Origin: Aurantibacillus circumpalustris
Lineage (GTDB): Bacteria; Bacteroidota; Bacteroidia; B-17B0; Aurantibacillaceae
DNA length: 64,000 nucleotides
NCBI RefSeq assembly: GCF_029625215.1
Contig: NZ_CP121197.1
Location: 248,001-312,000, forward strand
Direction: 5' to 3'
Shown: one piece after another, positions 21,793 through 26,940 of the stretch
Layout: every line of letters begins with the position of its first letter
Position numbering within the stretch: position 1 is the stretch's first letter
Notes under the pieces: model-generated
Seen by the model: only the letters and a program-made list of their open reading frames with translations
The model's database searches: none
Told to the model about the DNA's origin: nothing
Made by a program: the position numbers and the translations under genes

Positions 21793-21922
21793 GACTTTTA
21801 TTTTGCTTTAAAAGTACGGGAAATAAAGTGAAGGAATTATTAAGTAACACTATTTTGCAGTATTCTACATTTAGCTATAATTCATAGCAATGTAGCGGTG
21901 TGTTTCGCAGTACCTTAGAGCT

Positions 21923-23113
21923 ATGGAAAGACAGGTGATGCACATGGACTTAGACAGTTTTTTTGTCTCTGTAGAAAGACAATTAAATCCTGCGCTGGAA
22001 GGAAAACCCGTATTGGTTGGTGGTAGTAGCGATCGCGGTGTAGTAGCTTCTTGTAGTTACGAAGCCCGTAGTTTTGGAATTCATTCAGCGATGCCTATGC
22101 GGATGGCAAGACAGCTTTGTCCGGATGCCATCGTTGTAAAAGGCGATCATGATAAATACAGTGAATATTCTGATCAGGTAACTGATATTATTCGGGAAAA
22201 TGTTCCTGTTTACGAAAAAGCCTCCATTGATGAGTTTTATGTGGACATGACTGGCATGGATAAATTTTTTGGTTGTTATAAATTGGCAACAGAGATCCGT
22301 CAAAAAATAATCAGAGAAACGAATCTACCAATTTCTTTTGCTTTGTCTTCGAATAAAACAGTTGCAAAAATTGGGACGGGAGAGATAAAACCAAACAATC
22401 AACAACAAATTCCCTTCGGTACCGAAAAAACTTACTTGGGTCCTTTGTCTATTAAAAAAATTCCAGGGGTTGGTGAAAAAACATACCAGCTCTTGCGCGG
22501 CATGGGGATTGAAAAAGTGTGTACTGTACAAGAAATGCCTGTGCAAGTTCTCCAACAAGTTCTCGGTGAAAACGGAATGGGTTTGTGGAGAAAGGCGAAT
22601 GGTATTGATAATTCTCCCGTTGAGCAATACAACGAACGAAAATCGATTTCTACAGAATGTACGTTTGAAAAAGATACGATAGATGTCGATCATTTAAAAC
22701 GTGTGTTGTTAAGCATGACGGAAAAATTGTGTTTTCAATTACGCAATGAAGAAAAGTTGACGGGTTGTGTGACCGTAAAAATTCGGTATTCAGATTTTAA
22801 TACTTACACCATGCAAATGCGTGTTCCATACACAACAATGGATAACACGCTGATTGAAAAAGTAAAAGAATTGTTTGATAAGTTATTTCAGAAACGGATG
22901 TTGATTCGTTTGATTGGAATTAAGTTCAGTCATTTAATTCAAGGCACTTACCAAATTGATATGTTTAGTGATACTGCCGAACAAATTCAGTTGTATGCAG
23001 CAATGGATAAGCTACGTCAGCGTTTTGGTGAAGATGCCGTGATGCGTGCCGCAGGACTGGGATTGAATAAAAGGGAGACGAGTTTGTTTAATGGAATTAA
23101 GAAACTGAATTGA
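21923..23113 (+). CDS. dinB: DNA polymerase IV (Y-family)
   Basis: A 396-residue translesion polymerase. Catalytic carboxylates are visible: Asp9 (HMDLDSFF) and Asp103/Glu104 (ASIDEFYVD). The steric-gate Phe is in DSFFVS. The thumb helix-hairpin-helix (KKIPGVGEKTYQLLRGMG) and little-finger domain follow. The end RETSLFNGIKKLN contains a TSLF peptide resembling a beta-clamp-binding motif. The ATG at 21923 is used; a second in-frame ATG at 21938 would still leave the active site. A TACCTTAG element lies 4 nt before the first ATG. Together with the downstream dnaE-like gene it forms a likely mutagenic repair cassette. No LexA-type box was recognised. Confidence 0.93.
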   Translation: MERQVMHMDLDSFFVSVERQLNPALEGKPVLVGGSSDRGVVASCSYEARSFGIHSAMPMRMARQLCPDAIVVKGDHDKYSEYSDQVTDIIRENVPVYEKASIDEFYVDMTGMDKFFGCYKLATEIRQKIIRETNLPISFALSSNKTVAKIGTGEIKPNNQQQIPFGTEKTYLGPLSIKKIPGVGEKTYQLLRGMGIEKVCTVQEMPVQVLQQVLGENGMGLWRKANGIDNSPVEQYNERKSISTECTFEKDTIDVDHLKRVLLSMTEKLCFQLRNEEKLTGCVTVKIRYSDFNTYTMQMRVPYTTMDNTLIEKVKELFDKLFQKRMLIRLIGIKFSHLIQGTYQIDMFSDTAEQIQLYAAMDKLRQRFGEDAVMRAAGLGLNKRETSLFNGIKKLN

Positions 23114-23170
23114 AGTCCCGCCTTCGAGTTTCAACACAGAGGGCACAGAGGGATTGTAAGATAAAAAAGT

Positions 23171-23237
23171 CCAGTAGGGACGACCTGTTCATAAGAAAAA
23201 AAATTAAAGTAAGTAAACTCCGTAGGAGCGACCTGTA
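23171..23237 (+). repeat. Two REP-like units upstream of the RAYT gene
   Basis: CCAGTAGGGACGACCTGT (23171-23188) and CTCCGTAGGAGCGACCTGT (23219-23237) are related units about 48 bp apart; the second contains the CTCC-GTA-GGAG palindrome found in inverted form downstream of the gene. Confidence 0.7.
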
Positions 23238-23240
23238 AAT

Positions 23241-23729
23241 ATGGCAAATACCTATACTCAAATATATATCCAAATTGTTTTCGTCGTTAAAGGACGTCAA
23301 AATGTTATTTCAAAAAACAACAGAGAAGAATTGCATAAATACATCACAGGCATCGTTCAAAACAGAGGCCATAAATTACTCAGTATATTTTGTATGCCTG
23401 ACCACACGCACCTTTTAGTGGGACTAAAACCATCTCAGTCGATTTCAGATTTAGCAAGAGATATAAAAGCAGCTTCCTCTGGATTTATCAATGAAAAAAG
23501 ATGGATCGCTGGTAAATTCAATTGGCAAGAAGGATTTGGAGCGTTCTCATATGCGAAAGGACAGGTTGAGAACGTAGCGAGATACATCCAAAACCAAGAA
23601 GAACATCACAGAAAGAAAAATTTTAAGGACGAATATTTAGAATACTTGAGAGAGTTTGATATTACTTACAACGAAGCTTACCTCTTTGACTGGGTTGAAC
23701 AGGACGCTCCTACGGAGCTAAAAACCTAA
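23241..23729 (+). CDS. REP-associated tyrosine transposase (RAYT, IS200/TnpA-like)
   Basis: A 162-residue Y1 HUH transposase-like protein. The metal-binding HUH motif is His55-Thr-His57 (CMPDHTHLLV). The likely catalytic Tyr115 is in VARYIQNQEEH. RAYTs are single-copy domesticated relatives of IS200 that process REP palindromes. Here REP-like units flank both sides; the last codons themselves contain a GCTCCTACGGAGC copy. No IS ends typical of IS200/IS605 were recognised. It interrupts the dinB-dnaE pair. Whether it is active is unknown. Confidence 0.88.
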   Translation: MANTYTQIYIQIVFVVKGRQNVISKNNREELHKYITGIVQNRGHKLLSIFCMPDHTHLLVGLKPSQSISDLARDIKAASSGFINEKRWIAGKFNWQEGFGAFSYAKGQVENVARYIQNQEEHHRKKNFKDEYLEYLREFDITYNEAYLFDWVEQDAPTELKT

Positions 23730-23952
23730 CTACCACTTATACAAACAGTATGCTCCTACGGAGCTTGATTAGACAACAACGAAACCACTACTCAGCAATT
23801 ACACGCAACACAAACAATTTGCTCCTACAGAGCATGATTAAACTAACTAAAATGCTTCTCACTATTACACCTGACATAAACAGTTTGCTCCTACAAAGCA
23901 CGATTACATACTAACTAACATGCTTCTCAATTGCCACACATATTATAGTTTT
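23706..23952 (+). repeat. REP-like repeat array running into the dnaE 5' end
   Basis: Four units each begin with a palindrome: GCTCCTACGGAGC (23706-23718 and 23752-23764), GCTCCTACAGAGC (23821-23833) and GCTCCTACAAAGC (23887-23899). Spacings are 46, 69 and 66 bp. Units three and four also share ACTAACTAA and ATGCTTCTCA. The last of these is the dnaE start (ATG at 23920), and the fourth unit extends about eleven codons into dnaE. Confidence 0.8.
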
Positions 23953-26940
23953 GGTTATGGAACACTTTCAATCAAAGAACTTTTGCGTGCGGCATGGAAT
24001 CTTGGTTATATTTCTTTTGTTTTATCAGACATTAATAATACTTCTGCTGTTCTCGACACGCTGCGAATGTGCGATGAAAAACCTATGAAACCCATTCCAG
24101 GAATAGATTTTAGAAATGGGGTGAAACAGTGTTATGTTGGTATTGCGAAAAATAACGTAGGATTTAAAGAACTTAACGAACATCTCAGCGAACACCTTCA
24201 TGAAAAAAAAGAATTTGAAAAACGTCCGAAAAACTTAGAAAAATTTAAAAATACTTTTTTGGTTTATCCTTTGAACGCTTTTGATGGCTGCACTTTAGAA
24301 GAAAACGAATTTATTGGAGTCACGCCTAAAGAATTAACGTTGCTTCCATTTAATAAGTTCAAACATCTTACGCATAAAATGGTGGTGCTGCAGACTTTTT
24401 CTTTTTTGAATGAAGAACAACGCTTTGCACACAGCTTATTGAGAGCCATTGATCAAAACACCCTTTATAGCAAATTAACCAAAGAAGATCAGGGTTCAGT
24501 GAATGACATTGCTCCAACTAAAGAAGTGTTGTACAACACATTTTCCGCTTATCCGGAAATTATTGTAAACACAGAACAGATTCTTAATTCATGTTCTGTA
24601 AAATTCAAATTCGGGAAACTTCAAAATAAAAACTTAAAATTTTATAGTGGGAGTTTAGAAGAAGACATCTCTTTACTTCGCGAAGAAGCCAGAAAAGGAT
24701 TAGCCTACAGATACCCAATAGTAACAAAGGAAGTAGAAGATCGTCTCGAAAAAGAACTTTCCATTATTATTTCAAAGGAATTTACTTCTTACTTTTTAAT
24801 TAACTGGGATATTACGAGTTATGCGAGAAGCAAGGGATATTTTTATGTTGGTCGCGGAAGTGGCGCTAACAGCATGGTTGCTTACCTTTTGCGAATAACC
24901 GATGTTGATCCGATTGATTTGGATTTATATTTTGAGCGATTCATTAACGAAAGTAGAAGTAATGCTCCCGATTTCGATATTGATTTTTCATGGAATAACC
25001 GCGATGAAATGACAAAATACATTTTCGATAGGTTCGGTGAAAACAAGCGTGTAGCGCTACTTGGCACTTATGCTACTTACCAACACGATGCTGTTACACG
25101 CGAACTCGGAAAAGTATTTGGGTTGCCTCCAGCAGAAATTGATCGCATTCAAAAAATCACAGTAGTAAAAGAAACGGATGATTCAATCACCAAAGAGATT
25201 ATAAAATACAGTCAACTCATTGCGGGCTTTCCAAGTCATTTAAGCATTCACGCCAGCGGCATTATTATTTCTGAAGAGCCAATTACAGCTTATACTGCAA
25301 CTAATCTTCCACCAAAAGGCTATCGTACCACACAATTTAGTATGCTGGAGGCAGAAGATATTGGTTTATTTAAGTTTGATATTTTGAGTCAACGTGGACT
25401 CGGTAAAATAAAAGATGCTGTAGAAATAATAAAAGAAAATAGAAGTGTAGACATCGACATTCATGACATCAAAAAATTTAAACACGACGAAGAAATAAAA
25501 AAACTTCTCAAAGTTGGAAAATGTATTGGCTGCTTTTATGTGGAGTCACCAGCGATGCGGATGTTGCTGACCAAATTGCAAGCAGATGATTATTTACGTT
25601 TGGTCGCAGCAAGTTCTATTATTCGTCCCGGTGTTTCTAAAAGCGGCATGATGAATGAGTACATTCATCGCTACCGAAAAAAAGAGTTACGTGATAAAGC
25701 AGAAAAAGAACTTCCAGAATTATATAAGCTACTACAAGAAACATATGGTGTGATGGTGTATCAAGAAGATGTGATTAAAATCGCTCACATTTTTGCTGGG
25801 CTCACTTTAGCAGAGGCAGACTATTTGCGTCGCGGCATGAGTTGGAAATTTAAACAACGAAACGAATTTCATGTAGTAAAAGAAAAGTTCTTTAATAATT
25901 GTATCGAGAAAGGGCACCGCATAGAAACCATTCACATGATCTGGAATCAGATAGAAAGCTTTGCGAATTTTGCTTTCTCTAAAGGACACTCTGCCAGTTA
26001 CGCCGTAGAGAGTTATCAAGCACTGTATTTAAAAGCCTACTACCCTATCGAATACATTGTTGCAACTTTAAATAATGGCGGCGGCTTTTACAGAACAGAA
26101 TTATACATTCACGAAGCCAGAATGCATGGTGCTACTATTGTTCCGCCAGACGTAAATTACAGTGGTGTAAATTCTGAAGTAAAGGATAAAACTATTTTTC
26201 TTGGGTTAGGCATGATCGCTCAACTAGAAAAAGAAGTCATCATTACTATTCTGAACGAACGTTTTGAAGGTGGACCATTTATTGATCTTTATAATTTTAT
26301 TAAACGAACCAACATCTCCATTGAACAGGTGCGCATTTTAATTCGTGTTGGGGCTTTCAATTTTCTTCCAAAAAACAAAAAAGAATTGCTCTGGGAAGCA
26401 CACATGTTGATTAGTCCGACTAAAATAAAAAAACCGGGCAAAGAGTTGTTTGAATTGGAACCACAAAAATATAAATTGCCAACGCTGACCAACACTTGGC
26501 AGGACGATGCTTTTGATGAAATTGAATTACTTGGTTTTGCATTATGTCACCCATTTAAACTTCTAAAGCAACCCGTAAAAAACACATTGACTAGTTCTGA
26601 CCTTAAAAACTTAAAAGGACAAACCGTTGAAATAATTGGTTATTTAGTCAACGTAAAAACCACCTGGACAAGCAATAAAGAGAAAATGAATTTTGGAACG
26701 TTTTTAGATATTGATGGTTATTGGATTGACACGGTGCATTTTCCGCCAAGTGCTAGATCCCATCCTTTCAGTGGTCCGGGCACCTACCGAATTATTGGAA
26801 AAGTAGTCGAAGAATTTGATTTCATTTACATTGATGTTTCTGTTCAATTTCGTTTACCAATGATTAATCAAGACGATGATCCCGCTTTAAGAATACTTCC
26901 CGATTTTAAATCTAATAAAAGAATTGAGCAGAGGCATTGA
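23920..26940 (+). CDS. DNA polymerase III alpha subunit, error-prone (DnaE2-like) type
   Basis: A 1006-residue C-family polymerase, shorter than replicative DnaE (~1160). An N-terminal PHP domain (1-~200) comes first. The palm holds the catalytic Asp residues in PDFDIDF (350-356, Asp351/353/355) and GLFKFDILSQRGL (Asp487). Helix-hairpin-helix and a C-terminal OB fold (~890-990) follow. The PHP metal site looks degraded: the usual TDH motif reads SDI (36-38), so proofreading there is unlikely. Length and the dinB neighbour suggest a DnaE2/ImuC-like mutasome polymerase rather than the replicase. That is inference; no ImuA-like gene is present. Its first codons lie in a RAYT-associated repeat. 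Confidence 0.88.
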   Translation: MLLNCHTYYSFGYGTLSIKELLRAAWNLGYISFVLSDINNTSAVLDTLRMCDEKPMKPIPGIDFRNGVKQCYVGIAKNNVGFKELNEHLSEHLHEKKEFEKRPKNLEKFKNTFLVYPLNAFDGCTLEENEFIGVTPKELTLLPFNKFKHLTHKMVVLQTFSFLNEEQRFAHSLLRAIDQNTLYSKLTKEDQGSVNDIAPTKEVLYNTFSAYPEIIVNTEQILNSCSVKFKFGKLQNKNLKFYSGSLEEDISLLREEARKGLAYRYPIVTKEVEDRLEKELSIIISKEFTSYFLINWDITSYARSKGYFYVGRGSGANSMVAYLLRITDVDPIDLDLYFERFINESRSNAPDFDIDFSWNNRDEMTKYIFDRFGENKRVALLGTYATYQHDAVTRELGKVFGLPPAEIDRIQKITVVKETDDSITKEIIKYSQLIAGFPSHLSIHASGIIISEEPITAYTATNLPPKGYRTTQFSMLEAEDIGLFKFDILSQRGLGKIKDAVEIIKENRSVDIDIHDIKKFKHDEEIKKLLKVGKCIGCFYVESPAMRMLLTKLQADDYLRLVAASSIIRPGVSKSGMMNEYIHRYRKKELRDKAEKELPELYKLLQETYGVMVYQEDVIKIAHIFAGLTLAEADYLRRGMSWKFKQRNEFHVVKEKFFNNCIEKGHRIETIHMIWNQIESFANFAFSKGHSASYAVESYQALYLKAYYPIEYIVATLNNGGGFYRTELYIHEARMHGATIVPPDVNYSGVNSEVKDKTIFLGLGMIAQLEKEVIITILNERFEGGPFIDLYNFIKRTNISIEQVRILIRVGAFNFLPKNKKELLWEAHMLISPTKIKKPGKELFELEPQKYKLPTLTNTWQDDAFDEIELLGFALCHPFKLLKQPVKNTLTSSDLKNLKGQTVEIIGYLVNVKTTWTSNKEKMNFGTFLDIDGYWIDTVHFPPSARSHPFSGPGTYRIIGKVVEEFDFIYIDVSVQFRLPMINQDDDPALRILPDFKSNKRIEQRH

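Follow-up and report, generated by a model that had tools for sequence, protein, structure and literature searches.

The window analysed here is a stretch of 64,000 nucleotides from the genome of Aurantibacillus circumpalustris (G000, a single contig of 4.6 Mb), whose nearest publicly named relatives are MAGs labelled Sphingobacteriaceae and Bacteroidia. It carries, in this order, dinB, a Y1 transposase gene and a second dnaE, both polymerases being of the DNA-damage type, and an array of palindromes extends from the end of the transposase gene into the beginning of dnaE. The polymerase pair recurs widely, with dinB lying directly upstream of the second dnaE in the window and in 65 of 80 named loci. 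In window coordinates, the relevant features are:

21874..21888, unstranded: candidate operator of SOS type, GCTATAATTCATAGC, 34 nt before dinB (motif; also before the second dinB and in relatives)
21923..23113, + strand: dinB, Y-family polymerase (ORF; Pfam IMS, IMS_C)
23169..23181, + strand: upstream hairpin GTCCAGTAGGGAC, degenerate, GTA orientation (sequence; pairing with downstream units)
23217..23229, + strand: upstream hairpin ACTCCGTAGGAGC, GTA orientation (sequence; pairing with downstream units)
23241..23729, + strand: IS200-like Y1 transposase, matching TnpA_Y1 subclass 1.2 (DHTH, WQ, YIQNQEEHH; ORF, profiles, motifs)
23706..23718, - strand: hairpin unit 1 (u1), GCTCCTACGGAGC, perfect, inside the last transposase codons (sequence)
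23752..23764, - strand: hairpin unit 2 (u2), GCTCCTACGGAGC, perfect (sequence)
23794..23861, + strand: tandem duplication copy 1, comprising spacer, u3, junction and copied dnaE start (TRF, comparison with G060)
23821..23833, - strand: hairpin unit 3 (u3), GCTCCTACAGAGC, one stem mismatch (sequence)
23852..23861, + strand: copied dnaE nucleotides 1-10, ATGCTTCTCA (sequence match, shuffles)
23852..23914, + strand: putative 20-codon leader ORF (MLLTITPDINSLLLQSTITY, then a stop), made by the copied start (sequence)
23862..23929, + strand: tandem duplication copy 2, comprising spacer, u4, junction and the first 10 nt of dnaE (TRF, unit comparison)
23887..23899, - strand: hairpin unit 4 (u4), GCTCCTACAAAGC, two stem mismatches (sequence)
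23920..26940, + strand: dnaE-like second polymerase III alpha, dinB-linked, 1006 aa (ORF; start conserved in relatives)

Behind the transposase gene stand four palindromes of the GCTCCTACGGAGC type, at 23706, 23752, 23821 and 23887 (spacings 46, 69 and 66 bp), the first of them still in its last codons, just as the preliminary description had stated. This overlap with u1 exists because the codon corresponding to the TAG stop of the homologous genes in two relatives, G016 and G060, reads CAG in the window, and the frame continues through u1 to the next stop; in both relatives the gene stops at TAG just before u1. The palindromes are inverted around the transposase gene, being in GTA orientation upstream and in TAC orientation downstream. 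The two opposite-orientation hairpins on the 5' side (23169-23181 and 23217-23229) had been overlooked by the preliminary description. In u3 and u4 the palindrome has a G>A change in common which is absent from u1 and u2, and u4 carries one further change. A search of the 4.6-Mb genome for the GCTCCTACGGAGC-type palindrome, allowing at most one mismatch, found it only at the dinB-dnaE junction; the genome-wide count that had been proposed for these repeats thus speaks against dispersed REPs of the RAYT type.

TRF reports a 2.8-copy array with a period of 66 bp at 23741-23929. Within this region, a segment made of ACTAACTAA, then A or C, then ATGCTTCTCA occurs twice, the second copy spanning the dnaE start. 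The 20-mers ACTAACTAAAATGCTTCTCA (23842-23861) and ACTAACTAACATGCTTCTCA (23910-23929) are identical at 19 of 20 positions, whereas about 0.01 such 20-mers would be expected by chance per 64-kb window, and when the local sequence was shuffled 20,000 times under a Markov model, 19/20 was never reached. The repetition of ACTAACTAA-ATGCTTCTCA is real and beyond chance, and the earlier observation that units three and four have sequence in common, including the dnaE start, is borne out. Two histories had been offered for it: either a segment with the 5' end of dnaE was duplicated together with the palindrome, or the repeat supplied the translation start, in which case a palindrome unit would have borne ATGCTTCTCA and dnaE would have re-started from it. 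The 20-bp match between the units is compatible with the latter history, but the relatives refute it and leave it practically no probability. The dnaE start M-L-L-N-C-H-T stands at the same alignment column in all of them, with or without transposase or repeats, and the same M-L-L-N-C-H codons are found in relatives such as G030, G015 and G007, which lack both transposase and array; in addition, ATGCTTCTCA is absent from the units of G016 and G060. Since the start is conserved regardless of the transposase, ATGCTTCTCA is dnaE's own start and it is u3 that holds a copy. The junction alignment suggested in the preliminary description therefore bears out its duplication history, the dnaE start being present where no transposase is, and counts against the repeat as the source of the start. 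The same repeat in transposase-free relatives had been named as refuting a connection with the transposase; G030, the closest relative by the cassette (dinB 90%, dnaE 76%), has neither transposase nor repeat.

The state before the copying can be read from G060, in which the same junction holds dinB, a TnpA gene (83%) and dnaE in the layout u1-46-u2-98-u3-22-ATG with no copied start, and which by its sequence represents the single-copy state (u1, u2, u3, 22 nt, dnaE). In G016 (TnpA 76%), the same u1 and u2 precede a distinct 91-bp three-copy array that ends about 20 nt before dnaE and contains a contig break. Removing 68 bp at each position of the window array in turn and aligning every shortened version to G060 gave the highest scores for deletions that start at 23835-23859, within the duplicated part; the improvement is modest, with best scores of 50-51.5 against 49.3 for the undeleted sequence and a median of 45. 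It was also considered whether u1 might be an additional copy of the dnaE start, and this was rejected, its body aligning with u1 of G016 and G060, both of which lack the dnaE copy. Because u3 and u4 share a derived mutation, u4 derives from a u3 that had already decayed.

The best explanation, to which we assign a probability of about 0.78, is a G060-like state followed by a single tandem duplication of about 68 bp ending at dnaE nucleotide +10. According to this reading, the dinB-dnaE junction is occupied by a single-gene IS200-like element, made up of a subclass 1.2 TnpA_Y1 gene flanked on either side by REP-like hairpins, whose end originally carried, as in G060, three hairpins of which the last lay some 20 nt before the dnaE ATG. 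A segment comprising spacer, decayed u3, junction and the first 10 nt of dnaE would then have been tandemly duplicated once in the window lineage, most likely by slippage during replication or by unequal recombination at the hairpin, so that the gene-proximal copy would keep the working dnaE start and the upstream copy (u3) a dead one. The preliminary description had thus seen a real feature and was partly right about its origin, the duplication being supported by the ancestral start, by G060 without the copy and by the derived changes common to u3 and u4. Slippage or unequal recombination is favoured over a transposition that depends on the hairpin because the hairpin was already mismatched when it was copied.

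An independent parallel case came from a search of 82 dinB-dnaE loci for upstream copies of dnaE's own start region, which returned one clear case besides the window, locus L140 from an uncultured Bacteroidetes (ErkenSummer_bin-5358). A 2.9-copy, 127-bp array with a different palindrome, GCCACAGAT...ATCTGTGGC, lies there at L140:4588-4970, and every unit has at its end a duplicate of dnaE nucleotides 1 to 12, the decayed start copies ATGCTCCTCAAT and ATCCTTCTCAAT among them. Tandem arrays that cross a gene start account for 2 of the 13 long-period arrays (period at least 35 bp) in 809 kb, both of them at dnaE (window and L140) and ending at +10 and +12; arrays running over a gene start are unusual, and the earlier judgement to that effect holds. 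Palindrome arrays can consequently expand over a gene start, having done so twice independently at the same gene with breakpoints within 2 nt. This agreement between two species is not accounted for by plain slippage, and two cases are too few to give the reason.

Could the copied start itself have been kept for a function? The putative leader ORF at 23852-23914 is out of frame with dnaE and stops 5 nt 5' of its ATG, with an A-rich region upstream, and it might tune dnaE translation through coupling or attenuation, a notion to which the independent occurrence in L140 lends something. However, one of the L140 copies has lost its ATG, which is evidence against the copied start being under selection, and nearly all other cassettes manage without any such copy, so that this function is very improbable. 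The dnaE-start copy appears to be an accident of local repeat expansion rather than a new mode of starting genes; it is small and probably neutral, and in itself a modest curiosity.

Another question concerns the transposase, whose HUH nuclease would, if it built the array, cut and rejoin single-stranded hairpins at the dnaE-proximal end and copy gene sequence in doing so. This TnpA subclass is strongly associated with hairpins whose apex is CC-GWA-GG, and tandem arrays occur near subclass genes in L090, L137 and G016, but the duplicated unit contains a hairpin that was already mismatched, and the outcome in L140 was the same although its palindrome is unrelated and a Y1 gene was not detected at the junction there. 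We regard this origin of the array as unlikely, although some role of TnpA in the duplication is conceivable; the single duplication from a G060-like state remains the preferred reading.

The identity of this enzyme departs from the "RAYT" label it had been given. The window protein passes the NCBIfam IS200 model (71.9 bits against a cut-off of 55) and fails that for REP_Tyr_transpos, i.e. RAYT (36.5 bits against 80); the Y---NP catalytic motif of RAYT class 2 is absent, and in its place the protein has YIQNQEEHH, the pattern Y---Q--HH being found in 41 of 42 homologues. The genome has a single copy and, besides it, one distant homologue (34%), a low copy number as in subclass 1.2, and the DNA of the locus is found once, instead of in the several near-identical copies by which IS200/IS605 mobility is recognized. 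Judged by these signatures, the protein matches TnpA_Y1 subclass 1.2, and not RAYT/TnpA_REP class 2. In the part of the account of Quentin et al. (2018, PMC6006769) drawn upon here, subclass 1.2 is described as a low-copy group of Bacteroidetes and Cyanobacteria with Y---Q--HH, generally devoid of the typical IS200 terminal structures, and no REP-like repeats are named for it there.

More interesting than the dnaE-start event is the hairpin class tied to this subclass. Hairpins with a CC-GTA-GG apex have covarying stems (GCTCC, GTTCC, GTCCC, GCCCC, ACCCC), and the general form NNNCC-G(T/A)A-GGNNN, likewise with covarying stems, is found for example in the flanks of L064, L068, L087, L090 and L093. 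The density of the CC-GTA-GG hairpins beside subclass 1.2 genes is 1.48 per kb, compared with 0.02 per kb elsewhere (about 70-fold). Of 40 further subclass 1.2 genes from other families that served as a held-out set (L202-L241), 24 have hairpins with a GTA or GAA loop within about 320 nt upstream, while among other ORFs the figure is 13 of 417 (P = 2e-20). In L090, the subclass 1.2 tnpA gene has GCCCCGTAGGGGC on either side, repeated at intervals of about 48 bp and always in one orientation. No prior report of such hairpins for subclass 1.2 was found in the openly accessible literature searched. A little-studied subclass, defined without REP-like repeats, is thus widely flanked by covarying hairpins of fixed apex, which offer a concrete DNA substrate to test.

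This kind of transposase recurs between dinB and dnaE in G000, G016, G060, G008, G028 (the same locus as L137) and L153, and in the tree G000/G016/G060, G008, G028 and L153 form separate lineages. A single ancestral junction transposase was rejected, the junction copies being polyphyletic (AU p = 2e-7 when those of G000, G016, G060, G008 and G028 are held together). The G000/G016/G060 clade itself fits the cassette tree poorly, calling for three changes, and G030, G010 and G012 lack the transposase. An association of transposase and dinB-dnaE across the class was not significant: of 68 randomly sampled cassettes, 2 had such a transposase within 10 kb against 0.5 expected (P = 0.08), and the recurrence is, on this ground, taken as a trait of the window's group. 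That a transposase repeatedly stands between a pair of damage-tolerance polymerase genes in this group can be tested. At L123 the junction holds a class 2.6-like gene (YIHQNP), and other junctions hold GIY-YIG, 23S-IVP, ORF6N, PDDEXK, Bro-N or SRAP genes. Single small junction genes (GIY-YIG, ORF6N, Bro-N, Y1_Tnp, PDDEXK, 23S-IVP) are seen in L108, L113, L117, L121, L123, L124, L137, L141, L146, L153, L171 and L172, and palindromes can be seen flanking several of them. At L124:3928-5000, three partial copies of the start of a PDDEXK_3 (GxxExxY-type) gene lie 3' of that gene between palindrome arms, and look like MITE-like derivatives formed by internal deletion.

The motif before dinB conforms to GCTAY-N5-RTAGC. 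The second dinB of the genome, itself heading a dnaE, has it 53 nt upstream (G000:C1:3850016-3850030), and in relatives it precedes dinB at about a dozen loci; genome-wide there are 19 sites against 6 for the reversed control. It resembles the Bacteroidetes LexA operator CTAA-N5-TTAG (PMC8565304) in its dyad-N5-dyad layout, although the window motif matches neither that sequence nor GGA-N5-TCC exactly, and may be regarded as a candidate LexA-like operator of this group. Before non-cassette transposase genes it was found in 7 of 38 cases versus 7 of 422, an exploratory figure, since some of these loci were among those where the motif had first been noticed by eye; in the held-out set from other families, none of 40 had it. 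This operator placement is a lead within the genus only. CTAY-N5-RTAG lies upstream of non-cassette tnpA genes of the same genus in L064, L068, L087, L092, L094, L095 and L116. It is possible to imagine a wider scheme, which we consider doubtful, in which subclass 1.2 genes would be REPtron-like with a hairpin class of their own (covarying stem, CC-GWA-GG apex), would in this group come under DNA-damage response control by landing in dinB-dnaE or by carrying the same operator, and would encode a nuclease that grows arrays locally, here sweeping up the dnaE start.

When set beside known systems, the locus agrees with subclass 1.2, in so far as the cited part of PMC6006769 describes it, in the Y---Q--HH and HUH motifs, low copy number, occurrence in Bacteroidetes and greater proximity to IS200 than to RAYT; it departs from that part of the account in that many members are here flanked by CC-GWA-GG hairpins. 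With the RAYT/REPtron of Nunvar et al. (2010, PMC2817692) it has in common a Y1 gene between inverted palindromes, a repeat overlapping the 3' end of the gene and repeats that vary among homologues. In contrast to the REPtron, the window has no Y---NP, a RAYT score below the cut-off and repeats that are not dispersed in the genome, and GTA forms the apical loop of its hairpins, in contrast to the GT[AG]G (such as GTAG) at the foot of RAYT REPs. BIME-2 and tandem REP clusters are similar in that palindromic units are tandemly repeated in an intergenic region; unlike the alternating orientation of BIME-2, however, all four downstream units of the window have one orientation, and the repeat unit takes in the beginning of the gene that follows. 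The ends of REPs often supply a TAG stop, and REPs lie near or inside ORFs (Di Nocera et al. 2013, PMC3733652); similarly, the upstream hairpin GTCCCGTAGGGAC of G060 carries the TAG stop of dinB, as with the GTAG/CGTC-tagged REPs, whereas those elements are inserted in or beside genes and the window array took in a copied gene start. Finally, the order of dinB followed by dnaE is that of the putative PolY2-DnaE2 mutasome of Bacteroidetes (PMC6511836), with its LexA regulon (PMC8565304), with the difference that in the window a transposase gene stands between both polymerases.
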